A stretch of DNA of 36,592 nucleotides from Nitrospirota bacterium (GTDB taxonomy: Bacteria; Nitrospirota; Nitrospiria; Nitrospirales; NS-4): assembly GCA_005877615.1 (NCBI GenBank), contig VBOD01000013.1, positions 1 to 36,592 of the forward strand, in the 5' to 3' direction. The notes below the pieces were generated by a model, which saw nothing but the letters and a program-made list of their open reading frames with translations, did no database searches and had not been told where the DNA came from. Shown here piece after piece: positions 5,551 through 25,617 of the stretch; positions within the stretch are counted from its first letter, which is position 1, and each line of letters opens with the position of its first letter. Position numbers and translations under genes: made by a program.

Positions 5551-5588
5551 TTGAGAAGCCTGCCTTGCTCCGTTATAATGCGTCCCTC
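5551..5588 (+). promoter_or_regulatory. Predicted sigma70-type promoter (TTGAGA-N17-TATAAT)
   Basis: TTGAGA at 5551-5556, 17-nt spacer, TATAAT at 5574-5579; predicted start site about 5585-5587, just before ATG at 5589. Confidence 0.7.
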
Positions 5589-6077
5589 ATGGCGTTTCCC
5601 GCCAAAGACTTTGTGAGTCTGCTCCAGGACGTGGGATTCGACTTCTTCACCGGGGTTCCGGATTCGACGTTGGGTGGGGTCATCGCCACCTTGATCGAGC
5701 GGCGGATTTATATCCCGGCGGTCCGCGAAGATGAGGCGGTGGGTCTGGCGGCCGGGGCCTACATGGGTGGCAAGATACCGGCGGTGCTGATGCAGAACTC
5801 GGGGCTGGGAACGTCTTTGAACGCGTTGATCTCGCTGAACCTGATCTATGTGCAGCCGTGTCTGCTCCTGATCTCCTGGCGCGGCCACGACGGGAAGGAT
5901 GCCCCCGAGCATCTGGTGATGGGGCAGGTCATGACGAAGTTGCTCGATCTGGTGCGCATCCCGCACCGCGCTTTGCGCGCGGAAACCGTGCGCGAGGACG
6001 TGGGCTGGGCCGGGCAGGTCTTCATGTCGCAACGCATCCCAGTCGCCCTGCTGGTCACCCCGGGAGTCTTTTCGTGA
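5589..6077 (+). CDS. Phosphonopyruvate/sulfopyruvate decarboxylase, alpha (N-terminal TPP-binding half) subunit
   Basis: DFVSLLQDVGFDFFTGVPDSTLGG, EDEAVGLAAGAYMGGKIPAVLMQNSGLGTSLNALISLN, LLISWRGHDGKDAPEHLVMG; matches AepY/ComD pattern. ATG 5589 preferred over upstream in-frame start. Confidence 0.85.
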   Translation: MAFPAKDFVSLLQDVGFDFFTGVPDSTLGGVIATLIERRIYIPAVREDEAVGLAAGAYMGGKIPAVLMQNSGLGTSLNALISLNLIYVQPCLLLISWRGHDGKDAPEHLVMGQVMTKLLDLVRIPHRALRAETVREDVGWAGQVFMSQRIPVALLVTPGVFS

Positions 6078-6667
6078 GGCCCGAAGAAGGGGTCCTCACC
6101 AGCCGCAGCCGCGCGCTCGGAGCGGTGCTCGAGTTGCTCACCGACGAGCTTGTCGTCGTCTGCAACGGATTCCCCTCGCGGGAGGTTTACGCGCTGCGCG
6201 ACCGGCCGGAGAATTTCTATATGATCGGGTCCATGGGCTTGGCGTCGGCGATCGGCCTTGGCGTCGCCCTGGCGCAACCAAGGCGCAAGGTGGTGGTGTT
6301 GGACGGCGACGGCAACGTGTTGATGGCCATGGGCACGCTGGCGACGGTGGGAGCGTTGAAGCCGAGGAATTTCGTGCACATCGTGTTCGACAACGAAGTG
6401 TACGGCAGTACCGGCAACCAGCCGACGCTCTCGCAAACCGTGCGACTGGAGCAGGTAGCCAAAGCCACCGGCTATAAGAACGTGGAGCGGGTGCGTGAGC
6501 TGGACGATACAGTGTACGAGGCGAAGACGATGTTGAAGGAAGACGGTCCGAGTTTTCTGCTCGTGAAAGTCTCGGAGCTGGCGGAGGACGTGGGTCGGGT
6601 GGGGATCGAGCCGGCGGCCATGACCGAGCGATTTCGGAAGGCCGCCATGGGAGGCCACGCGTCATGA
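6074..6667 (+). CDS. Phosphonopyruvate/sulfopyruvate decarboxylase, beta (C-terminal half) subunit
   Basis: GTG start overlapping the alpha stop (GTGA); FYMIGSMGLASAIGLGVALAQPRRKVVVLDGDGNVLMAMGTLATVGALKPRNFVHIVFDNEVYGSTGNQPT; TPP motif GDGN...N. Confidence 0.85.
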   Translation: MRPEEGVLTSRSRALGAVLELLTDELVVVCNGFPSREVYALRDRPENFYMIGSMGLASAIGLGVALAQPRRKVVVLDGDGNVLMAMGTLATVGALKPRNFVHIVFDNEVYGSTGNQPTLSQTVRLEQVAKATGYKNVERVRELDDTVYEAKTMLKEDGPSFLLVKVSELAEDVGRVGIEPAAMTERFRKAAMGGHAS

Positions 6668-7959
6668 TCTTATTGAACCCCGGTCCCGTCAACGTGTCCG
6701 AGCGCGTGCGGCAGGCGTTGCTGAAACCGGACATTTGCCATCGTGAGTCAGAATTCAACGACTTGATCGAGGGCATCCGGGACAAGCTCATTCGGGCGTT
6801 CGCCCCCGGGGGGAATTTCGTGCCCATCCTCTTGACCGGGTCTGGCACGGCGGCCGTGGAGGCGGCCGTCACCTCTTGTCTGCCGCCGGGGCGCCGCATC
6901 CTCCTGATCAAGAACGGCGTGTACTCGCAGCGGATCTCGGCGATCGCCAACGCGCACAAGATGCAGAACATGGATATCTCGTTCGAGTGGGACCAGCGCG
7001 TCGAAAACGAACCGATCGAGGTCGCGCTCCGGCAGAACAAGGCAATCCAGGTCGTGGCGGTCGTCCATCACGAGACGTCCACCGGCATGCTCAACCCCGT
7101 CAAGGAGATCGGGGCGATCGCCAAGAAAGCCGGTCGCTTTCTGTTGGTGGACGGCGTCAGCAGCCTGGGCGGGGAAGAGATCGATTTTAATTCCTGCAAC
7201 GTGGGGTTGATGGCCGGCTCCTCGGGCAAGTGCATCCAGGGCTTTCCCGGGGTCGGGTTCGTCCTCGTTCGGCGGGACCTCATGGAGCAGATGGTGACTT
7301 ATGAACAGCGGTCGGTGTACCTTCACCTGCCCACCTATTACAGGCAGCAGGAGGAAGGCTCCATCCCATTCACCCCGGCAGTGCAACTCTACTATGCCTT
7401 CGACGAGGCGCTGAACGAGCTGCTGGAGGAAGGGGTGGCGAACCGCATCGCGCGATATCGCAAGCTGGCGCGTCTCATCCGAAACCGCATGCGGGCCATT
7501 CGGATGAAGTTCTACCTGCGCGAGCCCCTCTGGTCGAGCACTCTGTCTGCCTTCAACCTGCCGGAGGGCGTCTTCTACGATCACCTGCACGACCTGCTGC
7601 GCGAGCGGGGCTACATAGTGTACGCCGGCCAGGCTCAGTTGGCGGAGAGCATTTTCCGCGTGGCCAACATGGGGGCCTTGACCGAGGCCAACATCACCGG
7701 CTTCCTGGACGCCTTCGAAGAAGCCTTGCCGGAGGCGCAGAAGCGCGGCGAAGAGCGGTTGAAGGAGATGGAGCGCCTGACCGGTGACCGGAAGGAGAAG
7801 GAAGAGCGGGAGAAGGCCGAAGCCGAGGCGGCGAAGAAGGCCGAGGAAGAGGCGGCCCTCGTGGCCAAGGCGAAAGCTCTGGAGGAACTCGAGGCGAAAG
7901 CGGCCAGCAGGGAATCCAAAGAGAAGGACACTGGAGAAGAGGCGAAGACGAAAGCTTAA
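6664..7959 (+). CDS. 2-aminoethylphosphonate--pyruvate transaminase-like class V aminotransferase with charged C-terminal extension
   Basis: LLNPGPVNVSERVRQALL, VHHETSTGMLNPVKEIG, VDGVSSLGGEEID, SSGKCIQGFPGVGFVLVRR match the PhnW family; C-terminal ~55 aa are Lys/Glu/Ala-rich. Confidence 0.82.
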   Translation: MILLNPGPVNVSERVRQALLKPDICHRESEFNDLIEGIRDKLIRAFAPGGNFVPILLTGSGTAAVEAAVTSCLPPGRRILLIKNGVYSQRISAIANAHKMQNMDISFEWDQRVENEPIEVALRQNKAIQVVAVVHHETSTGMLNPVKEIGAIAKKAGRFLLVDGVSSLGGEEIDFNSCNVGLMAGSSGKCIQGFPGVGFVLVRRDLMEQMVTYEQRSVYLHLPTYYRQQEEGSIPFTPAVQLYYAFDEALNELLEEGVANRIARYRKLARLIRNRMRAIRMKFYLREPLWSSTLSAFNLPEGVFYDHLHDLLRERGYIVYAGQAQLAESIFRVANMGALTEANITGFLDAFEEALPEAQKRGEERLKEMERLTGDRKEKEEREKAEAEAAKKAEEEAALVAKAKALEELEAKAASRESKEKDTGEEAKTKA

Positions 7960-7974
7960 AGAACGAGATGATAT

Positions 7975-8709
7975 ATGAAAGCCATCATCCTGGCAGCGGG
8001 TGTCGGCAAACGCATCGGGGCGGCCACCGGGAATCGACCCAAGTGCCTGCACGAGTTCGGCGGGCGATCCCTGCTGGTCCGGTATCTCGATGCGTTGCTC
8101 GCAGTCGGGGTGAAGAGCGCGGTCCTCGTCGTGGGGCATCGGCAGGAACTGATCCGGGACGCGGTCGGGGAGAGTTATCGCGGCCTGGCGATTCGGTATG
8201 TGGTCAACGATCAGTACCACCGGGGCAGTCTCTATTCGCTGTGGCTGGCTCGCGGGAGCTTCGACGACGACCTGCTGATCATGGACTCCGATGTGCTGTG
8301 CCCGGCCTCGTTCGTGAGGCGGCTGGTCACGTCCCCCCATCCGAACGTCCTGTTGGTTGATGAGATGGCGCGTCAGGATTCAGAAGAGCGGATGGCGATC
8401 ATCCGGGGCGGCCGGGTGGTGGCGCTGACGAAGAAGATTCCGAACGAGCCGCCGGACCTGATCGGCGAGGGGGTGGGGTACATCAAAATCAACCGGGAGG
8501 ATGCCCGAGCCATGCTGGCTGCGATGGAGCCCTTTGTGCAAAAGGGCGAGCTGGACATGGAGTATGAGGATACCTGGGAGGCCTTCTTCCGCGCGGTTCC
8601 AGTGGGCTGCGAAAAGATCGGCGGGCAGCCGTGGATCGAAATTGACTTCCCGGAGGACATCGTGCGCGCCGAGCGGGAAGTGTTACCGAGACTACAGGAG
8701 ACGCTATGA
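7975..8709 (+). CDS. PntC/LicC-like nucleotidyltransferase (candidate phosphonate cytidylyltransferase)
   Basis: MKAIILAAGVGKRIGAATGNRPKCLHEFGGRSLLVRYLDAL; QYHRGSLYSLWLAR; LLIMDSDVLCP; PWIEIDFPEDIVRAE. Confidence 0.8.
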   Translation: MKAIILAAGVGKRIGAATGNRPKCLHEFGGRSLLVRYLDALLAVGVKSAVLVVGHRQELIRDAVGESYRGLAIRYVVNDQYHRGSLYSLWLARGSFDDDLLIMDSDVLCPASFVRRLVTSPHPNVLLVDEMARQDSEERMAIIRGGRVVALTKKIPNEPPDLIGEGVGYIKINREDARAMLAAMEPFVQKGELDMEYEDTWEAFFRAVPVGCEKIGGQPWIEIDFPEDIVRAEREVLPRLQETL

Positions 8710-9689
8710 GCATCCGCATGGACCAAATTCAACCGACCATCGACCGCGAATACGACTACTTCATGTCCGAGCACCCGCACTGGAGCCTGACGAAGGGCGA
8801 TCAAGACCTCGAACTGGTGGCGCACGCGCTCCGCGTGCTGCTCCACATGAAGACCACCCCACAGCACCTGTCCGAGTACCTCGCGCTGGTGGACTGCCAG
8901 CACGCGGACGGAGGGTGGGGGAAGATGGCCTCCAATAAGGAGAGCGCCGCGTGGGTGACGGCATTCTGCGCCCTGATGTTGATCCGCGGGAACCTCTCCT
9001 TGAAGCATCCGCGGATCGCCGAGGCCGTCAAGAAATGCGCCCGCTATTTCCTGGAGACCCAGAAGGAGGACGGGAAATGGTCCGATCCGTCCTGGGCGGA
9101 CCTGGATGCCGTGAGCCACCCGATCAGCTTCTTTGACGTGCTGCTGGCCGTCGGCAAGCACCTCGTGGATGAGCCAACCCTGGCCAAGGTCAGAGCCTCC
9201 TGGCGCAAGGGGATGAAGTTCATGTTGGACCGGCAGACGGCTGACGGCGGCTGGTACGATCCCGAGTTCCATCCCACGGGGGTGGAGATCACGGCGCACC
9301 TGATCCAAGATTCCATTGTGGCGGATCTGCTCCTCGGCGATGAGTTCAACGTGCGCGAGTGCTGCCGGAAGGGCGTGATGAAGCTGCTCTCGGTGCAGGC
9401 CGCTGACGGGTCCTGGGACGGCGAGAACGTAGACCACACCATGGACTGCACGCGGTCCATCATGCTGGTCTGCAGCGTCCTGGGCATGCGGGCGCAGTGC
9501 GACCGCGCGATCGAGCGCGGGCTCGAGTGGATTCTCAAGCACAAGTGCGAGCACGGATGGCCTGATTTTCCGGGGATGGAGACAAACCTCGAGCGCACCT
9601 GCGATGGGCTCGACACCCTGCTCAAGTACAGGGCGTACAGCCAGCCGGTCACGACCGCTATCGTCAAGCTCTGGGGGTATGCCGCGTGA
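8706..9689 (+). CDS. QW-repeat (prenyltransferase/squalene-cyclase-like) single alpha/alpha-barrel protein
   Basis: Repeats DCQHADGGWG, ETQKEDGKWSD, DRQTADGGWYD, SVQAADGSWDG; 327 aa, about half the length of squalene-hopene cyclases, and no DxDD motif seen. Confidence 0.75.
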   Translation: MSIRMDQIQPTIDREYDYFMSEHPHWSLTKGDQDLELVAHALRVLLHMKTTPQHLSEYLALVDCQHADGGWGKMASNKESAAWVTAFCALMLIRGNLSLKHPRIAEAVKKCARYFLETQKEDGKWSDPSWADLDAVSHPISFFDVLLAVGKHLVDEPTLAKVRASWRKGMKFMLDRQTADGGWYDPEFHPTGVEITAHLIQDSIVADLLLGDEFNVRECCRKGVMKLLSVQAADGSWDGENVDHTMDCTRSIMLVCSVLGMRAQCDRAIERGLEWILKHKCEHGWPDFPGMETNLERTCDGLDTLLKYRAYSQPVTTAIVKLWGYAA

Positions 9690-9997
9690 TTTTTCTGGCA
9701 AAGGTCGCCGAGATCCCGGACGGCGCGCGCAAGCTCATCCAGGTGAACGGCATCAGCGTCGCGCTGTTCCGTCACGAGGGGCAATTCTACGCTCTGAACA
9801 ATGCGTGTCCCCACCGCCAAGGGCCGCTGGTCCGGGGGACACTCGAAAAAACTGCGGAAGGGAGCGGGTGCTTCATTCGCTGTCCGATGCACGGCTGGAG
9901 GTTTGACCTGGCCACGGGCGACAGCCGCGGGCGCCCGGGCAACGCCACTGTCTATCCGCTCATCCGGCAGAATGACGAACTGTACATCGAGCTCTGA
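9686..9997 (+). CDS. Rieske [2Fe-2S] ferredoxin
   Basis: CPHRQGPL ... CPMHGWRFDLATG: C-x-H and C-x2-H Rieske ligands; GTGA overlap with upstream gene. Confidence 0.88.
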   Translation: MIFLAKVAEIPDGARKLIQVNGISVALFRHEGQFYALNNACPHRQGPLVRGTLEKTAEGSGCFIRCPMHGWRFDLATGDSRGRPGNATVYPLIRQNDELYIEL

Positions 9998-10003
9998 GCT
10001 CTT

Positions 10004-11440
10004 ATGGACCGCGCTCCCATTGACAGCGCCCTGATCCTGACAACCACGCGAATCTTCAACCGGCCGGGCATGCCCTCGCCCGCGAGCCCCCTGACGGTGG
10101 TGGGCGGCCTGTCCCTGTTTCAACGGACCATTCTGACCCTGCAACGCGGCGGCATCTCCCGGTTCATTGTGCTGGCGGGGGACGAGACGGAGGACCTGCA
10201 ACGTCAGTTGCACGCAGATGGGCGCATCCGGGCGTCAGTGCGGTGGCTTCCGGTGCTGGAGTTTTCCCCTGGTGATCCCCGCGCGTGGGAGATTTTTCCG
10301 GGCCTCTTCGGCGCATCGTACTTGGTGGTTGGGACGGGGGCCGTCTTTCCGGCGAGCCTGGTGACGCGCGTGCGGCAGGAAGCGGGGAACGGCGAGCCGC
10401 TCGTCGTGGTGCGGGACGTCCCGCAGCCACAGTCACGGGACGCCCTGAATCCTTCGACGGGGCTCAGAACGGGGTCCTCGAAGCCGGAGGGACGATCGCG
10501 TGAGCCAGGCGACTTAGCAGTTTTGGAGCCGTCTTCTGCTGAAGGCGGCGTGGCGACCACGCTGGAGACTCCCGCGACGCCGACCCTCGACGTTGATCTC
10601 ATGGTGATTCCGGAAGGCTTTACCGCCTCCGGTTGGGCGACCCCGCAGGACAGCCCGTACCCCGTGCACGCGGCGTTCGAGCGAGCAATTCGCCAAGGGC
10701 AGGGGCGAGTGCTGCTGTTAGGATCGGACTGGTACCAGGACGTCTGCGCCGAAGGGACATCCGGCCCGGCCGAGGCGGAGCAGACGTTGATCCGTTCGCT
10801 CAAGGGGGGCCTCGAAGGCTTCGTGGACCGGCATTTTAATCGCCGGTGTTCGAGGTGGATCACCCGGTGGCTGCTGCGCACGCCGTTGACGCCCAATGGC
10901 GTGACCGTCCTGGCCACGGCAGTGGGGGTCCTCGCCTCTGTGGCCTTCGGCGTCGGAGGGTACGCCGCAGGCGTCATCGGCGCGCTTCTTTTCCAACTCT
11001 CCACGATCCTGGACTGCTGTGACGGCGAAGTCGCGCGGCTCAAGTTCAAGGAGTCGGCCTTCGGCGAGCAATTGGACGTCGTTCTCGATAACGTCGTCCA
11101 TATCGCGCTCTATGCCGGCATCGCCTGGGCGTCCTATGAGGGCAATTGGGGGCCTGTGGCCCTGCTCTTGGGTGGGTTCGCGATGCTCGGAAACGTCGCG
11201 GCGTTCCTGGTGGTCCAACAAGCGACCCGGATGCGAAAAGGACTCGATCCCGAACGGCGGCGCTATGTCGAGTCGCTCCTCAACAGCCTCGTCAGCCGCG
11301 ACTTTTCGGTGCTCATCCTAGCGTTTGCCCTCGTCGGGCACGTGGACTGGTTCCTCCCCCTCGCCGCGATCGGCTCGAACATCTTCTGGCCCGTGCTGGC
11401 CTGGCAGCTCAGATCCCCGAACACGTCCGCGCGCGCCTGA
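10004..11440 (+). CDS. Fusion: degenerate nucleotidyltransferase-like domain + CDP-alcohol phosphatidyltransferase
   Basis: C-terminal DCCDGEVARLKFKESAFGEQLDVVLD matches DGxxARx8GxxxDxxxD; N-terminus keeps the NTase fold pattern (ALIL...VVGGLSLFQRTILTLQRGGISRFIVLAG) but lacks the GxGxR/PK signature. Confidence 0.85.
   Translation: MDRAPIDSALILTTTRIFNRPGMPSPASPLTVVGGLSLFQRTILTLQRGGISRFIVLAGDETEDLQRQLHADGRIRASVRWLPVLEFSPGDPRAWEIFPGLFGASYLVVGTGAVFPASLVTRVRQEAGNGEPLVVVRDVPQPQSRDALNPSTGLRTGSSKPEGRSREPGDLAVLEPSSAEGGVATTLETPATPTLDVDLMVIPEGFTASGWATPQDSPYPVHAAFERAIRQGQGRVLLLGSDWYQDVCAEGTSGPAEAEQTLIRSLKGGLEGFVDRHFNRRCSRWITRWLLRTPLTPNGVTVLATAVGVLASVAFGVGGYAAGVIGALLFQLSTILDCCDGEVARLKFKESAFGEQLDVVLDNVVHIALYAGIAWASYEGNWGPVALLLGGFAMLGNVAAFLVVQQATRMRKGLDPERRRYVESLLNSLVSRDFSVLILAFALVGHVDWFLPLAAIGSNIFWPVLAWQLRSPNTSARA
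10445..10475 (+). repeat. REP-like interspersed repeat remnant inside CDS
   Basis: cCTTCGACGGGGCTCAGAACGGGGTCCTCGA resembles the common bacterial CCTTCGAC...GCTCAG.ACG interspersed repeat; encodes NPSTGLRTG in the inter-domain linker. Confidence 0.45.
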
Positions 11441-11444
11441 GACA

Positions 11445-12446
11445 ATGACGCGCCTCACGCTCGTCCTCCTGCTGTTGGGCGTGGCCATGCTTTGCGGGCT
11501 CGTGCTCCATATCGGCCCGGCCGTTCTAGCCGGGGAGATTGAGAAACTGGGCTGGAACGTCGTCTGGGTCCTGTTGCCTTCGATTGCCGTGTACGTGCTG
11601 GACGCCCTCGGCTGGCGTTACACGCTGGGCCGTCATGCGGAGAAGATCAGGTTCGATCGCCTGTTCATGACCCGCATGGCCGGCGAAACCGTAAACTATA
11701 CGACTCCGGGCATGTACCTGGGGGGCGAGCCGATGAAGGCGTATCTGCTCAGCCGGCACGGCGTCCCGCTGGTGGATGGCATGGCGTCAGTCGTCACTGC
11801 CAAGACGACGATGACGTTGGCGCAAGTCGTCTTCATCATGCTGGGGATCGGACTGGGCGCGGTGCTGTTGAGCCGCTCCAACAACTTGCTGGTGCTGAGC
11901 CTGCTCGGACTCGGTTTGCTGGGGTTCGGCGTTGGATTGTTTCTCGCGGTACAGCGGTTCGGGCTGTTCATGAGCCTCCTCCGGGTGTTCGACCGGGTGG
12001 GAATCAGGATTGCCTGGTTGAAAGCGCGGGAGGGCAGACTGGAGGCCCTGGATAGCGCGATCCGGGACTTCTATGTCCGCGACCGGCGCGGCTTCCTTCT
12101 CTCCTTCGCTTCGTTCTTTGCGGGGTGGCTGGCGGGCGCCGTGGAAGTGTACCTGATCCTGTATTTTCTCGGGCTTCCGGTGGACTGGCGCACGGCGATC
12201 GCCATCGAAGCGCTGGCCGTGTTTGCCAAGGGCGGGACGGCGTTCATCCCAGGCAGCGTCGGCGGCCAGGAAGCGGGGACCGTGCTCGTGTTCGTGGCCT
12301 TCGGGCTGACCGAACAGGCCGGCGTGACCTTCGCGCTCGTGCGCCGCCTCCGGGAGATCGTCTGGGTCGCGTTCGGTCTCTGGGTGCTGGCGATGGAAGG
12401 CCGGGTTGCAGCTCCCGCGGAACCGTGCGATCGCCCGCCGGCGTGA
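11445..12446 (+). CDS. Lysylphosphatidylglycerol synthase transmembrane-region (UPF0104)-like integral membrane protein
   Basis: Multi-TM; ETVNYTTPGMYLGGEPMKAYLL, ALAVFAKGGTAFIPGSVGGQEAG typical of this flippase-like family. ATG 11445 chosen within longer ORF. Confidence 0.8.
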   Translation: MTRLTLVLLLLGVAMLCGLVLHIGPAVLAGEIEKLGWNVVWVLLPSIAVYVLDALGWRYTLGRHAEKIRFDRLFMTRMAGETVNYTTPGMYLGGEPMKAYLLSRHGVPLVDGMASVVTAKTTMTLAQVVFIMLGIGLGAVLLSRSNNLLVLSLLGLGLLGFGVGLFLAVQRFGLFMSLLRVFDRVGIRIAWLKAREGRLEALDSAIRDFYVRDRRGFLLSFASFFAGWLAGAVEVYLILYFLGLPVDWRTAIAIEALAVFAKGGTAFIPGSVGGQEAGTVLVFVAFGLTEQAGVTFALVRRLREIVWVAFGLWVLAMEGRVAAPAEPCDRPPA

Positions 12447-21133: not shown

Positions 21134-22363
21134 ATGGATTCAATCGTGAGCATTCTTTCAGTTCTTCAATGGATTTGTGTGATACCCGTCATCGTCGGGT
21201 CTGTCTATGGGGTTATCTGTCTCTTGTGCGTTGTCCGCTACCGATCACAGAAAGCCCGGTCCTCTCCAACACCTGGCAGAGAGTGGCCTCCAGTCACCAT
21301 TCTGAAGCCGGTTCACGGGCTGGAGAAAGACCTTGATAAAAATCTCCGCAGCGCCTGCCTTCAGGATTACCCAACTTATCAAGTGGTCTTCGCCGTCCAG
21401 GATGAGAAAGACCCCGCGATCCCTTTGCTCAAAAATCTCGAACTGGAGTTTGGTCCTCAACGGGTGTCTGTGGCCATCGAGCATCGCCAAGTCGGCACCA
21501 ACGGCAAGATCAACAACTTGATTGGCGGTCTGATGCATGCACGTCATGAGATTCTGGTGATCAGCGATAGCGACGTCTACTTGAGGCCGGATTATCTCAA
21601 GGCCATCGTGGCCCCGTTGGCGGATCCGGATGTCGGGTTCGTCTGCACGTACTTTATGGCGACCGCTGCAGAATCCTGGTTCGAGAAGATGGAGTTGCTC
21701 ACGATGAATGCCGGTTTTTTCCCCGACACCGTGTTCGCCCATGTAACCGGAACCGCCAAATTCTGTATTGGATCGTCGGTAGCCCTTCGGCGCTCAACGC
21801 TGAACGAGATTGGTGGGCTGGAAGGTCTCGCAGATTATTTGGCCGAAGACTACGAGATGGGTCGCCGCATTTGGGAGACTAGCAAAAAGATGGCGGTCGC
21901 GCCTTACGTGGTGGAAACAGTAGTGGACCTCAGGACGCCCTCTCAATGGTGGAACCATCAACTTTATTGGGATCAAAACAGCTGTATGGTTCGGCCTGGC
22001 GCACTCTTCTCCACCATATTCATCCGTCCCGTCCCGTTCGCGCTCCTCTTCGCCGCAGCCAGGCTAGGAGATCCGGTTGGGCTATCGGTCCTTGCGGGAA
22101 CGCTTGCCCTGCGTCTCGTCACTACTGCTGTGATTCTAGGTTGGGGGCTTCGCGATCGTGAAGGGCTGAGGAGCCTGATGCTTCTTCCGTTCCGGGACCT
22201 GGTGGCTGTTGTTTCCTTGCTCCTCGCTTTCACCAAACGGACGACTGTCTGGCGCGATAAGGAGTTTGTCCTGACCCGCGATGGACGCATGGTTGCACGG
22301 GAGAAAAACTTGTGCGAAAGCTCATCGTCACCGGTGACGACTTCGGTCTCGCCGTCCCGGTAA
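21134..22363 (+). CDS. hpnI: Hopanoid biosynthesis-associated glycosyltransferase (HpnI, ceramide glucosyltransferase-like)
   Basis: PPVTILKPVHGLEKDLDKNLRSACLQDYPTYQVVFAVQDEKDPAIPLL; ISDSDVYLRPDYL; QNSCMVRP. ATG 21134 preferred. Confidence 0.88.
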   Translation: MDSIVSILSVLQWICVIPVIVGSVYGVICLLCVVRYRSQKARSSPTPGREWPPVTILKPVHGLEKDLDKNLRSACLQDYPTYQVVFAVQDEKDPAIPLLKNLELEFGPQRVSVAIEHRQVGTNGKINNLIGGLMHARHEILVISDSDVYLRPDYLKAIVAPLADPDVGFVCTYFMATAAESWFEKMELLTMNAGFFPDTVFAHVTGTAKFCIGSSVALRRSTLNEIGGLEGLADYLAEDYEMGRRIWETSKKMAVAPYVVETVVDLRTPSQWWNHQLYWDQNSCMVRPGALFSTIFIRPVPFALLFAAARLGDPVGLSVLAGTLALRLVTTAVILGWGLRDREGLRSLMLLPFRDLVAVVSLLLAFTKRTTVWRDKEFVLTRDGRMVAREKNLCESSSSPVTTSVSPSR

Positions 22364-23163
22364 ACGAAGCCATAGAAGAAGCCCATCGACGGGGGATCCT
22401 GACCACCGCCAGCCTGATGGTTGGAGCGGGGGCTGCAGCCGATGCGGTGGAACGGGCCAGGCGGCTTCCAACGTTGAGTGTGGGACTCCATCTCGTACTG
22501 GTCGAAGGGCACCCGGTCCTACCCCCTTGCGAGATCCCCGATCTGGTGGACAGCCGGGGTGAGTTTGCGACTCGTCTCTTCGGCGCCGGTCTGAACTTTT
22601 TCTTTCGGCCCGGCGTGAGGCGGCAATTGGAGGCGGAGATTCGTGCACAGTTTGAGGCGTTCACGAAGACCGGGCTGCCCCTGGATCATGTGAATGCGCA
22701 CAACCATATGCATATCCACCCCACCGTGCTGGGGTTGATTTTGAAGGTCGGACGGGACTACGGCCTCAAGGCCGTCCGCGTTCCCTATGAGCCGTTGCTT
22801 CCGTCGTGGCGTGCGTCAGGAACGGCTTTTTTCTCCCGCTCGGCCTTATGGCTGTTCATGATGCCGTGGAGCAAGCTATTGAAGGCGCGCCTGCGGCGCG
22901 CCGGCGTACGTTCGAACGAATATGTTTTCGGTTTGAATGACAGCGGGCAGATGGATGTTTATCTCGTGCTGCAAATGCTACGACATCTGCCGGAAGGCGT
23001 CACGGAGATGTATTTCCATCCCGCAACGCGCCGCTGTCCTGAAATTGATCGCACCATGCCGACCTATCGGCATGAACGGGAATTCGAAGCATTGATCAGT
23101 CCAGCGGTCCGCGAGGCAATCGCGGCGTCTGGGTTCCAGCGAATCGCCTTTAGCGAGCTGTAA
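22312..23163 (+). CDS. hpnK: Hopanoid biosynthesis-associated deacetylase (HpnK, YdjC/ChbG-like)
   Basis: KLIVTGDDFGLAVPVNEAIEEAHRRGILTTASLMVGA; GLPLDHVNAHNHMHIHPTV; GTG start with GGGAG about 8 nt upstream, inside hpnI. Confidence 0.88.
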   Translation: MRKLIVTGDDFGLAVPVNEAIEEAHRRGILTTASLMVGAGAAADAVERARRLPTLSVGLHLVLVEGHPVLPPCEIPDLVDSRGEFATRLFGAGLNFFFRPGVRRQLEAEIRAQFEAFTKTGLPLDHVNAHNHMHIHPTVLGLILKVGRDYGLKAVRVPYEPLLPSWRASGTAFFSRSALWLFMMPWSKLLKARLRRAGVRSNEYVFGLNDSGQMDVYLVLQMLRHLPEGVTEMYFHPATRRCPEIDRTMPTYRHEREFEALISPAVREAIAASGFQRIAFSEL

Positions 23164-24183: not shown

Positions 24184-25617
24184 ATGAAAACCCTGCTCTT
24201 AAATCCACCCTCATTCGAGATGTTCGACGGCGGGGCCAGCTCGCGCTATCAGGCTACCCGTGAGATTCCCTCCTTCTGGTATCCAGTGTGGCTGGCCTAT
24301 TCGGCCGGTATGATCAAAGACAGCCGGCTCTTGGATGCACCGTCCCATGACGTGACTCCGGAGGAAACGATCAAGATCGCCGCCGAGTACGAGTTTCTCG
24401 TGCTGTTTACCAGCACCGCCGGCTTTCGCAGCGATGCCCGACTCGCTGAAGCGATCAAATCAGCGAATCCCGACATCAAGATCGCCTTCGTCGGTCCGCA
24501 TGTAACCGTTCAGCCGGAGCAAAGCCTGAAAGCCTCACCGGCCATTGATTTCGTGGTCAGGCGGGAATTCGACTACCCCGTGTCGGAATTTGCCGGGGGG
24601 AAGAACCTGGCGGAGATTGCTGGCATCAGCTTCAGAAAGGATGGGCGCATCGTCCACAATCCGGACCGCCCGCAGATCGAGGATCTCGATGCCCTTCCCT
24701 TCGCGGTGGATGTCTATAAGCGGGACCTCGACATCACACGATACGACATTCCCTATTTGAAGCACCCCTACGTGGCCTTCTACACCTCGCGGGGTTGCCC
24801 GGCGCTGTGCACGTTCTGTCTCTGGCCGCAGACGATGAGCGGGCATCCCTGGCGGACACGCAGCGTTTCCAATGTCGTCGAGGAGGTGAAGCGCTGCCTG
24901 GAGTACTTCCCCCAGGCGAAGGAAATTTTCTTCGACGATGACACGTTTCCCTGGGCCAAGGACCGCACGATCGAGATCTGCAAGGCTTTCAAGCCTCTGA
25001 AGTTTACCTGGTCCTGCAACTCCCGGGTGACGGCGGGCTACGAGACCTTGAAGGCGATGAAAGAGGCTGGCTGCCGGCTGCTGATCGTCGGGTTCGAGTC
25101 CGGCGATCCGCAGATTCTGAAGAACATCAAGAAAGGCGCCACGGTCGAGCAGGCGCGCGAGTTCATGAAAAATTGCAAGAAGCTGGGCCTTGTGGTGCAC
25201 GGCGATTTCCAGGTCGGGCATCCAGGTGAAACGCCGGAGACGATCGAGCGGACCATTCAATTTGCCATGGAGCTCGATCCGGAGACGATTCAGGTTTCGA
25301 TGTCTCATCCGTATCCGGGCACGGAGTTCGATGCCTACTTGAAGAAACACAACTATGCCGTGGACTCAGTGATGACGGATGAGGAGGGGCATCAACTCCC
25401 CGTGTTTCAATATCCAGGGCTAAGCAGAAAAGACATCATGCACGCGGTCGAGCGGTTCTACGACCGGTATTACTTCCGGCCGCATGTCATCTTCCGGATC
25501 CTGCGGCGCGCGATCTTCGACGCCAACGACCGGCGGCGGCTCTACATCGAAGGCAAGGAGTTTTTGAAAGTGCGCGCCCAGCGCAAGAGGTTTGTCAGAA
25601 CCCAGGCGACTGTTTGA
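24184..25617 (+). CDS. hpnJ: Hopanoid biosynthesis-associated radical SAM protein HpnJ
   Basis: MKTLLLNPPSFEMFDGGASSRYQATREIPSFWYPVWLAYSAGMI; B12-binding-like N-terminus; SAM motif CPALCTFC. Confidence 0.9.
   Translation: MKTLLLNPPSFEMFDGGASSRYQATREIPSFWYPVWLAYSAGMIKDSRLLDAPSHDVTPEETIKIAAEYEFLVLFTSTAGFRSDARLAEAIKSANPDIKIAFVGPHVTVQPEQSLKASPAIDFVVRREFDYPVSEFAGGKNLAEIAGISFRKDGRIVHNPDRPQIEDLDALPFAVDVYKRDLDITRYDIPYLKHPYVAFYTSRGCPALCTFCLWPQTMSGHPWRTRSVSNVVEEVKRCLEYFPQAKEIFFDDDTFPWAKDRTIEICKAFKPLKFTWSCNSRVTAGYETLKAMKEAGCRLLIVGFESGDPQILKNIKKGATVEQAREFMKNCKKLGLVVHGDFQVGHPGETPETIERTIQFAMELDPETIQVSMSHPYPGTEFDAYLKKHNYAVDSVMTDEEGHQLPVFQYPGLSRKDIMHAVERFYDRYYFRPHVIFRILRRAIFDANDRRRLYIEGKEFLKVRAQRKRFVRTQATV

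Follow-up and report, generated by a model that had tools for sequence, protein, structure and literature searches.

A near-universal operon of a bacterial order resembles the downstream part of a phosphonate head-group pathway and is linked to a candidate PEP mutase with a substituted lid

The window, i.e. the whole stretch of 36,592 nucleotides that was analysed, contains an operon that probably encodes the downstream part of a pathway for a 2-aminoethylphosphonate (AEP) head group, with the first enzyme encoded elsewhere in the genome. Natural phosphonate biosynthesis begins with PEP mutase (PEPM), for which the window contains no gene. The sequence-only reading had accordingly described an operon without a PEP mutase, which is true of the window but false of the genome: contig C127 carries a fusion of a PEPM-type protein with a nucleotidyltransferase domain (G000:C127:6183-7892), whose counterparts are linked to the operon in relatives. 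The genome search thus recovered a PEPM-type gene, although the diagnostic motif EDKxxxxxNS is replaced by EDNxxxxxCS.

Eight co-directional genes occupy positions 5589-12446, and an ORF check of the window found all their frames present. Four junctions are 4-nt overlaps (6074/6077, 6664/6667, 8706/8709, and 9686/9689) and the remaining ones are short gaps, exactly as read from the sequence alone. The family labels given in that reading were borne out by profile searches, which recognised decarboxylase halves and aminotransferase, NTP_transf_3, toroid, Rieske, CDP-OH phosphotransferase, and HpnL/UPF0104-like proteins.

5589..6077, + strand: ppdA, alpha half (pyrimidine-binding) of a split phosphonopyruvate/sulfopyruvate decarboxylase; TIGR03297 122 bits and TIGR03845 118 bits, both below cut-off
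6074..6667, + strand: ppdB, beta half (TPP-binding) of the decarboxylase; TIGR03846 196 bits and TIGR03297 188 bits, both below cut-off; 4-nt overlap with ppdA
6664..7959, + strand: PhnW/AepZ-type aminotransferase with a charged C-terminal tail; TIGR03301 361.2 bits; 4-nt overlap with ppdB
7975..8709, + strand: nct, PntC-like nucleotidyltransferase (NTP_transf_3); AAGxGxR...PK signature intact; best solved match the PntC domain of 6pd1
8706..9689, + strand: single alpha/alpha toroid with a squalene-hopene cyclase (SHC)-like fold, accessory; profile, predicted model, and fold matches
9686..9997, + strand: small Rieske [2Fe-2S] protein, accessory; PF00355 67 bits
10004..11440, + strand: two-domain CDP-alcohol phosphotransferase; PF01066; NF041135 104 bits on the C-terminal part; AF2299 nearest solved
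11445..12446, + strand: HpnL-like/UPF0104 flippase-like membrane protein; TIGR03476 166 bits (cut-off 195.65) and TIGR00374 76.8 bits (cut-off 43.2)

The operon is real and near-universal in its bacterial order. Other genomes share its gene order, so it is more than a chance arrangement: a six-gene core (ppdA-ppdB-phnW-nct-CDP-alcohol phosphotransferase-HpnL-like) is kept across the order, and ppdA is present in 215 of 236 genomes and in 150 of the 154 of good quality. One genome (G016) has lost PEPM, ppdA, and the remaining core while retaining the toroid. The toroid and Rieske genes, counted as operon members in the sequence-only reading, are indeed part of it here, but they are accessory and absent from the operons of most families inspected; the idea that they are essential was dropped for this reason. 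The predicted model of the toroid (pLDDT 91.6) matches the folds of class II cyclases and complement thioester domains. Judged by sequence, however, the protein falls outside the class II terpene (squalene-hopene) cyclases despite this similar fold, as it lacks the DXDD acid motif, having only DLD(A/T), and scores 49 bits against a cut-off of 431 for TIGR01507.

From their families, PpdA and PpdB would decarboxylate phosphonopyruvate to phosphonoacetaldehyde, which the PhnW-type enzyme would aminate to AEP. The aminotransferase exceeds the TIGR03301 (PhnW-AepZ) cut-off of 360.8 bits, as does the Binatia protein (364.1 bits), and its nearest solved relatives are AEP transaminases. PpdB is closest to a putative Ppd beta subunit (9iz3_B) among solved structures, and both decarboxylase halves score about as well against the sulfopyruvate models as against TIGR03297, which was built for the unsplit protein. 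These equal scores would also suit a substrate other than phosphonopyruvate, e.g. sulfopyruvate, or 3-phosphohydroxypyruvate leading to phosphoethanolamine and CDP-ethanolamine. Another use of these genes is possible given that several genomes (G176, G323, G006, and others) contain ppdAB-phnW without a PEPM match. Still, G176 and G323 also lack the nct-to-HpnL-like part and with it the activation and transfer genes, PEPM-type genes adjoin ppdA in many genomes, and the aminotransferase lies above the PhnW-AepZ cut-off, which makes a different substrate quite improbable.

Phosphonopyruvate itself would be supplied by the fusion on C127. Its lid reads EDNVFPKRCS; the variant form EDN(V/I)(F/Y)PKRCS occurs in 28 sequences, and many relatives have EDNVYPKRCS. 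PF13714 alone is too broad to define PEPM, as it also matches in control genomes, and two further PF13714 matches in the same genome proved to be MICL-type by motif and score. The fusion scores 275.5 bits against TIGR02320, below the curated cut-off of 319.55, and this is still its best-scoring family. Signature changes are limited to K116 to N and N122 to C (mussel numbering), whereas D58, D85, D87, E114, K120, R159, and H190 are invariant in 28 EDN-type and 48 EDK-type sequences. The fused nucleotidyltransferase domain is unlikely to be a working cytidylyltransferase, because its GxGxR stretch is degenerate, which it is alongside both PEPM lid types.

A PEPM-type gene, canonical or variant, was found in 207 of the 236 genomes, and the two types never occur together. 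Among the relatives inspected, twelve carry the EDN-type gene divergently beside ppdA, and in Candidatus Binatia it adjoins toroid and Rieske genes, with ppdA-ppdB-phnW-nct located elsewhere in the same genomes. Four genomes with the canonical type (G020, G280, G017, and G184) retain decayed remnants of the variant beside the operon. Together, the position beside ppdA, the toroid and Rieske neighbours in Binatia, and the mutual exclusion with remnants tie the fusion to the operon. The majority of canonical PEPM genes examined lack an adjacent Ppd gene of their own; G297 and G024 encode a second Ppd pair beside theirs, so the canonical PEPM may serve another pathway in these two. Thirteen good genomes have ppdA and no PEPM match, and the presence-absence association between PEPM and ppdA is not significant when taken alone.

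Based on linkage, mutual exclusion, and replacement, we infer that the EDNxxxxxCS protein is a PEP mutase that is active with its substituted lid and produces phosphonopyruvate. Its lid cysteine occupies the position of the methylisocitrate lyase cysteine (EDQxxPKRCG), where phosphonopyruvate hydrolase has a threonine. This residue and the score below the PEPM cut-off could point to a C-C lyase or phosphonopyruvate hydrolase-like enzyme that is a mere operon neighbour. We consider this unlikely, as the protein has a higher score for PEPM than for hydrolase or lyase in the profile comparison, groups with PEPM and apart from MICL proteins in the tree (support 100/100), and alternates with canonical PEPM, leaving decayed remnants where the latter took over.

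Downstream of the putative mutase, Nct would convert AEP to CMP-AEP, as suggested by its nearest relative: the best solved match is the PntC domain of 6pd1 (residues 2-242). At the positions that contact the AEP amine in Tde-PntC, the alignment, read together with the published text, places an Asp at Glu104, as in LicC, and a Glu at Glu196, so AEP is a tentative substrate. Going by its family, the CDP-alcohol phosphotransferase would then pass the AEP group to an alcohol, with a membrane lipid as the likeliest acceptor. Its CDP-OH domain spans residues 296-406 of 478 (PF01066, 41 bits, cut-off 22), and the motif DG(x)2AR(x)8G(x)3D(x)3D is present in this C-terminal catalytic domain as DCCDGEVAR...GEQLDVVLD. 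Inspected by eye, the N-terminal region looks like an NTP transferase that has degenerated.

The encoded pathway thus looks like one that places a phosphonate head group on a membrane lipid, and the HpnL-like protein might handle or flip the product. In the phosphonolipid operon originally proposed, family membership, the conserved order, and PEPM linkage in relatives speak strongly for the AEP head group, whereas lipid transfer and flipping are predictions. There is a small chance that the acceptor is instead a glycan or another surface polymer, since known PntC clusters tailor cell surfaces (PMC6697681) and the transferase domain has its closest relatives among enzymes that transfer inositol phosphate. 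However, genes for glycosyltransferases or polysaccharide export are missing from the conserved core, whose last gene encodes a flippase-like membrane protein and which lies next to lipid transport genes in Binatia.

Hopanoids were considered as a specific lipid acceptor. Three hpn genes lie 8.7 kb downstream of the operon:

21137..22363, + strand: HpnI, hopanoid glucosaminyltransferase (TIGR03472 315 bits, cut-off 310); neighbourhood, possibly related
22312..23163, + strand: HpnK (TIGR03473 390 bits, cut-off 232.6); neighbourhood, possibly related
24184..25617, + strand: HpnJ radical SAM protein (TIGR03471 738 bits, cut-off 577.6); neighbourhood, possibly related

In Binatia, ppdA-ppdB-phnW-nct is located between hpnN and hpnK, followed by hpnI and hpnJ, and Rokubacteria have an nct-like/phosphotransferase-like pair inside an SHC cluster. 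The last operon gene is HpnL-like, and SHC and the operon core are both missing from G016. Nevertheless, HpnJ is missing from several genomes with the operon, families f2 and f3 showed no other hpn gene next to the operon, and the HpnL-like proteins (n = 8) score 146-187 bits, all below the HpnL cut-off. SHC is nearly universal in the order and discriminates little, so its co-occurrence was dropped as proof of a hopanoid acceptor. A phosphonohopanoid product is therefore rather unlikely, and a hopanoid with an AEP head group, made via a PEP mutase with the lyase-like EDNxxxxxCS lid and common to this order and Candidatus Binatia, is a doubtful extension of this idea. Titles and abstracts searched yielded nothing relevant on hopanoids and phosphonate or on Nitrospira and phosphonate biosynthesis.

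An order-wide operon apparently ending in lipid transfer would identify its carriers as producers of phosphonolipids, which we did not find described in the literature searched. Surveys of phosphonate producers count by the EDK(X)5NS motif (PMC6697681, PMC8931226); if the EDNxxxxxCS form is active, they overlook producers, among them about a quarter of the order's genomes. The natural exchange of lid types also offers a direct way to test which residues of the lid are required by PEP mutase.

Several known systems resemble parts of this pathway. It shares with hpn clusters the hpnIKJ genes in the window, the contiguity with hpnN/hpnK in Binatia, and the HpnL-like gene; the consulted part of the published hpn account gives no established hpnL function and names no phosphonate genes (PMC12583986). 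Like the Pnt pathway with PntC (Rice et al. 2019, PMC6697681), it combines a PEPM-NTP transferase fusion, Ppd, an AEP transaminase, and a separate LicC/PntC-like cytidylyltransferase. It differs in the EDNxxxxxCS lid, the PEPM gene outside the operon, the split Ppd, a core that includes a CDP-alcohol phosphotransferase and an HpnL-like protein, and the accessory toroid and Rieske proteins. The EDN protein shares the fold family, metal and substrate residues, K120, and S123 with PEP mutase (TIGR02320; mussel 1m1b, bacterial 5unc), and departs from it in the two lid substitutions and the sub-threshold score. Finally, the phosphotransferase resembles IPCT/DIPPS and AF2299 in its catalytic domain and NTP-transferase-like N-terminal region, but here this region appears degenerate and a separate, intact nucleotidyltransferase gene precedes it.

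The operon of eight genes (5589-12446, + strand) had been read from its sequence alone as one without a PEP mutase (PEPM), a claim that does not hold for the whole genome, a 1.82-Mb assembly in 131 contigs at 90.5% completeness, where a full-genome search for the enzyme found a PEPM-type fusion on contig C127:

C127:6183-7892, 569 aa, variant PEPM fusion; best family TIGR02320 (PEP mutase), with a C-terminal nucleotidyltransferase region

This protein scores 275.5 bits against TIGR02320, below the cut-off of 319.55, yet this is its top-scoring family, and its lid reads EDNVFPKRCS. In an alignment with the mussel enzyme and across 28 EDN and 48 EDK sequences, K116 is replaced by Asn and N122 by Cys in the variant, and Lys120 and the remaining metal and substrate residues are conserved. 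The genome encodes three PF13714 proteins, two of which were rejected as PEPM, being methylisocitrate lyase-like on motif and score.

All eight genes are present as originally described, on the + strand with four 4-nt overlaps, and family searches support their labels. Curated models score the two halves of the split decarboxylase (ppdA/ppdB) indistinguishably as phosphonopyruvate (Ppd) or sulfopyruvate decarboxylase, and the aminotransferase narrowly passes the PhnW-AepZ cut-off. Among solved structures, ppdB is closest to a putative Ppd beta subunit, the aminotransferase to 2-aminoethylphosphonate transaminases, the PntC-like nucleotidyltransferase (nct) to a PntC-AEPT fusion, and the CDP-alcohol phosphotransferase, which has an intact catalytic motif, to AF2299/IPCT-DIPPS phosphotransferases.

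Across the 236 genomes of the order, ppdA is found in 215 (E <= 1e-30) and a PEPM-type gene in 207 (E <= 1e-55), with the PEPM cut-off exceeded in 143. The canonical form (EDKxxxxxNS) occurs in ~146 genomes and the variant in ~61, the latter count being inferred from score class, with 28 distinct variant sequences read directly. Each genome has one PEPM-type match, except for G209 with two genes; one of its PEPM-like proteins (L281) has the lid EDKKGLKRNS and lies above the TIGR02320 cut-off. Canonical and variant PEPM were not seen together in any of the 236 genomes (hypergeometric probability ~1e-34, assuming independent genomes, which they are not). In the tree, PEPM of both lids split from the methylisocitrate lyases at 100/100, and canonical PEPM forms one clade, whereas the variant is not resolved as a single clade.

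The variant gene adjoins ppdA in divergent orientation in G307 and G351, and also in G046, G022, G162, G182, G228, G231, G273, G339, G421, and G202. Most inspected canonical genes have no Ppd neighbour, the exceptions being those of G297 and G024. Four canonical-type genomes (G020, G280, G017, and G184) retain the operon, with variant-gene fragments still adjoining ppdA; tblastn flagged single stops in some of the operon's genes. We infer that variant and canonical PEPM serve the same role for the operon. ppdAB-phnW may also have a use without PEPM. Reading the ppdA and PEPM match tables yielded 14 good genomes without a PEPM match, 13 of which still carry ppdA; G176 and G323 keep only ppdA-ppdB-phnW, the activation and transfer genes being absent, and in G006 nct, toroid, Rieske, and PEPM are all missing. 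Further counter-evidence is the ppdA-adjacent PEPM relative of G328 (L375:9914-10630), with a third lid variant, EDTLQPARFG, in the divergent slot where relatives carry the EDN type. Some of the PEPM absences are probably assembly gaps, and the association between ppdA and PEPM presence was not significant when tested simply.

Gene order of the toroid-containing operon is conserved in the family of the studied genome and in one other family (f4) of the same order; families f2, f3, and f8 conserve the core ppdA-ppdB-phnW-nct-phosphotransferase-HpnL-like without toroid and Rieske. In Candidatus Binatia (assigned from record titles), variant PEPM, toroid, and Rieske adjoin one another, and ppdA-ppdB-phnW-nct lies at a separate place in these same genomes. 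Two loci (L384 in G048, L389 in G169) have three HpnL-like genes in tandem after the phosphotransferase.

The predicted structure of the toroid is confident (pLDDT 91.6). It resembles class II terpene cyclases, among them single-domain squalene-hopene cyclase (SHC)-like proteins, as well as complement thioester domains; a full DXDD motif was not found in the toroid. In G010, a canonical-PEPM genome, no Rieske gene is recognisable between toroid and phosphotransferase (L024, ~7970-8440), a stretch with stops in all three coding-strand frames, and the gene looks decayed. G007 has a second toroid copy away from the operon (L026:2117-3094, 47-51% identical), adjoining a gene that by eye is fatty-acid-desaturase-like.

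The last operon gene, HpnL-like, scores under the HpnL cut-off. The window also contains hpnI, hpnK, and hpnJ, 8.7 kb downstream of the operon, and in two Binatia loci (L157 and L158) hpnN and hpnK flank ppdA-ppdB-phnW-nct, with hpnI and hpnJ next. Three loci of Candidatus Rokuibacteriota (L065, L089, and L095) have a pair of nct-like (~40-43% identical) and CDP-alcohol phosphotransferase-like genes inside an SHC cluster, followed in L089 by what by eye is an inositol-1-phosphate-synthase-like protein. SHC is encoded in 152 of 154 good genomes of the order, and SHC is missing from G016, as are the operon core and PEPM. Together, these hpn neighbourhoods, the Rokuibacteriota SHC cluster, and the absences in G016 hint at a hopanoid or general membrane-lipid role for the pathway.

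The operon is real and conserved, and all functions assigned to its genes and to PEPM are predictions from sequence. Most of the operon fits a pathway type already known, in which a PntC-type enzyme activates a phosphonate; the order-wide conservation of the putative transfer module is new. Rice et al. (PMC6697681) found EDKxxxxxNS in 883 of 905 fused PF13714 proteins and set the remaining 22 aside, and Locke et al. (PMC8931226) also demanded this motif; the candidate PEP mutase described here is a new motif variant that escapes such published filters.
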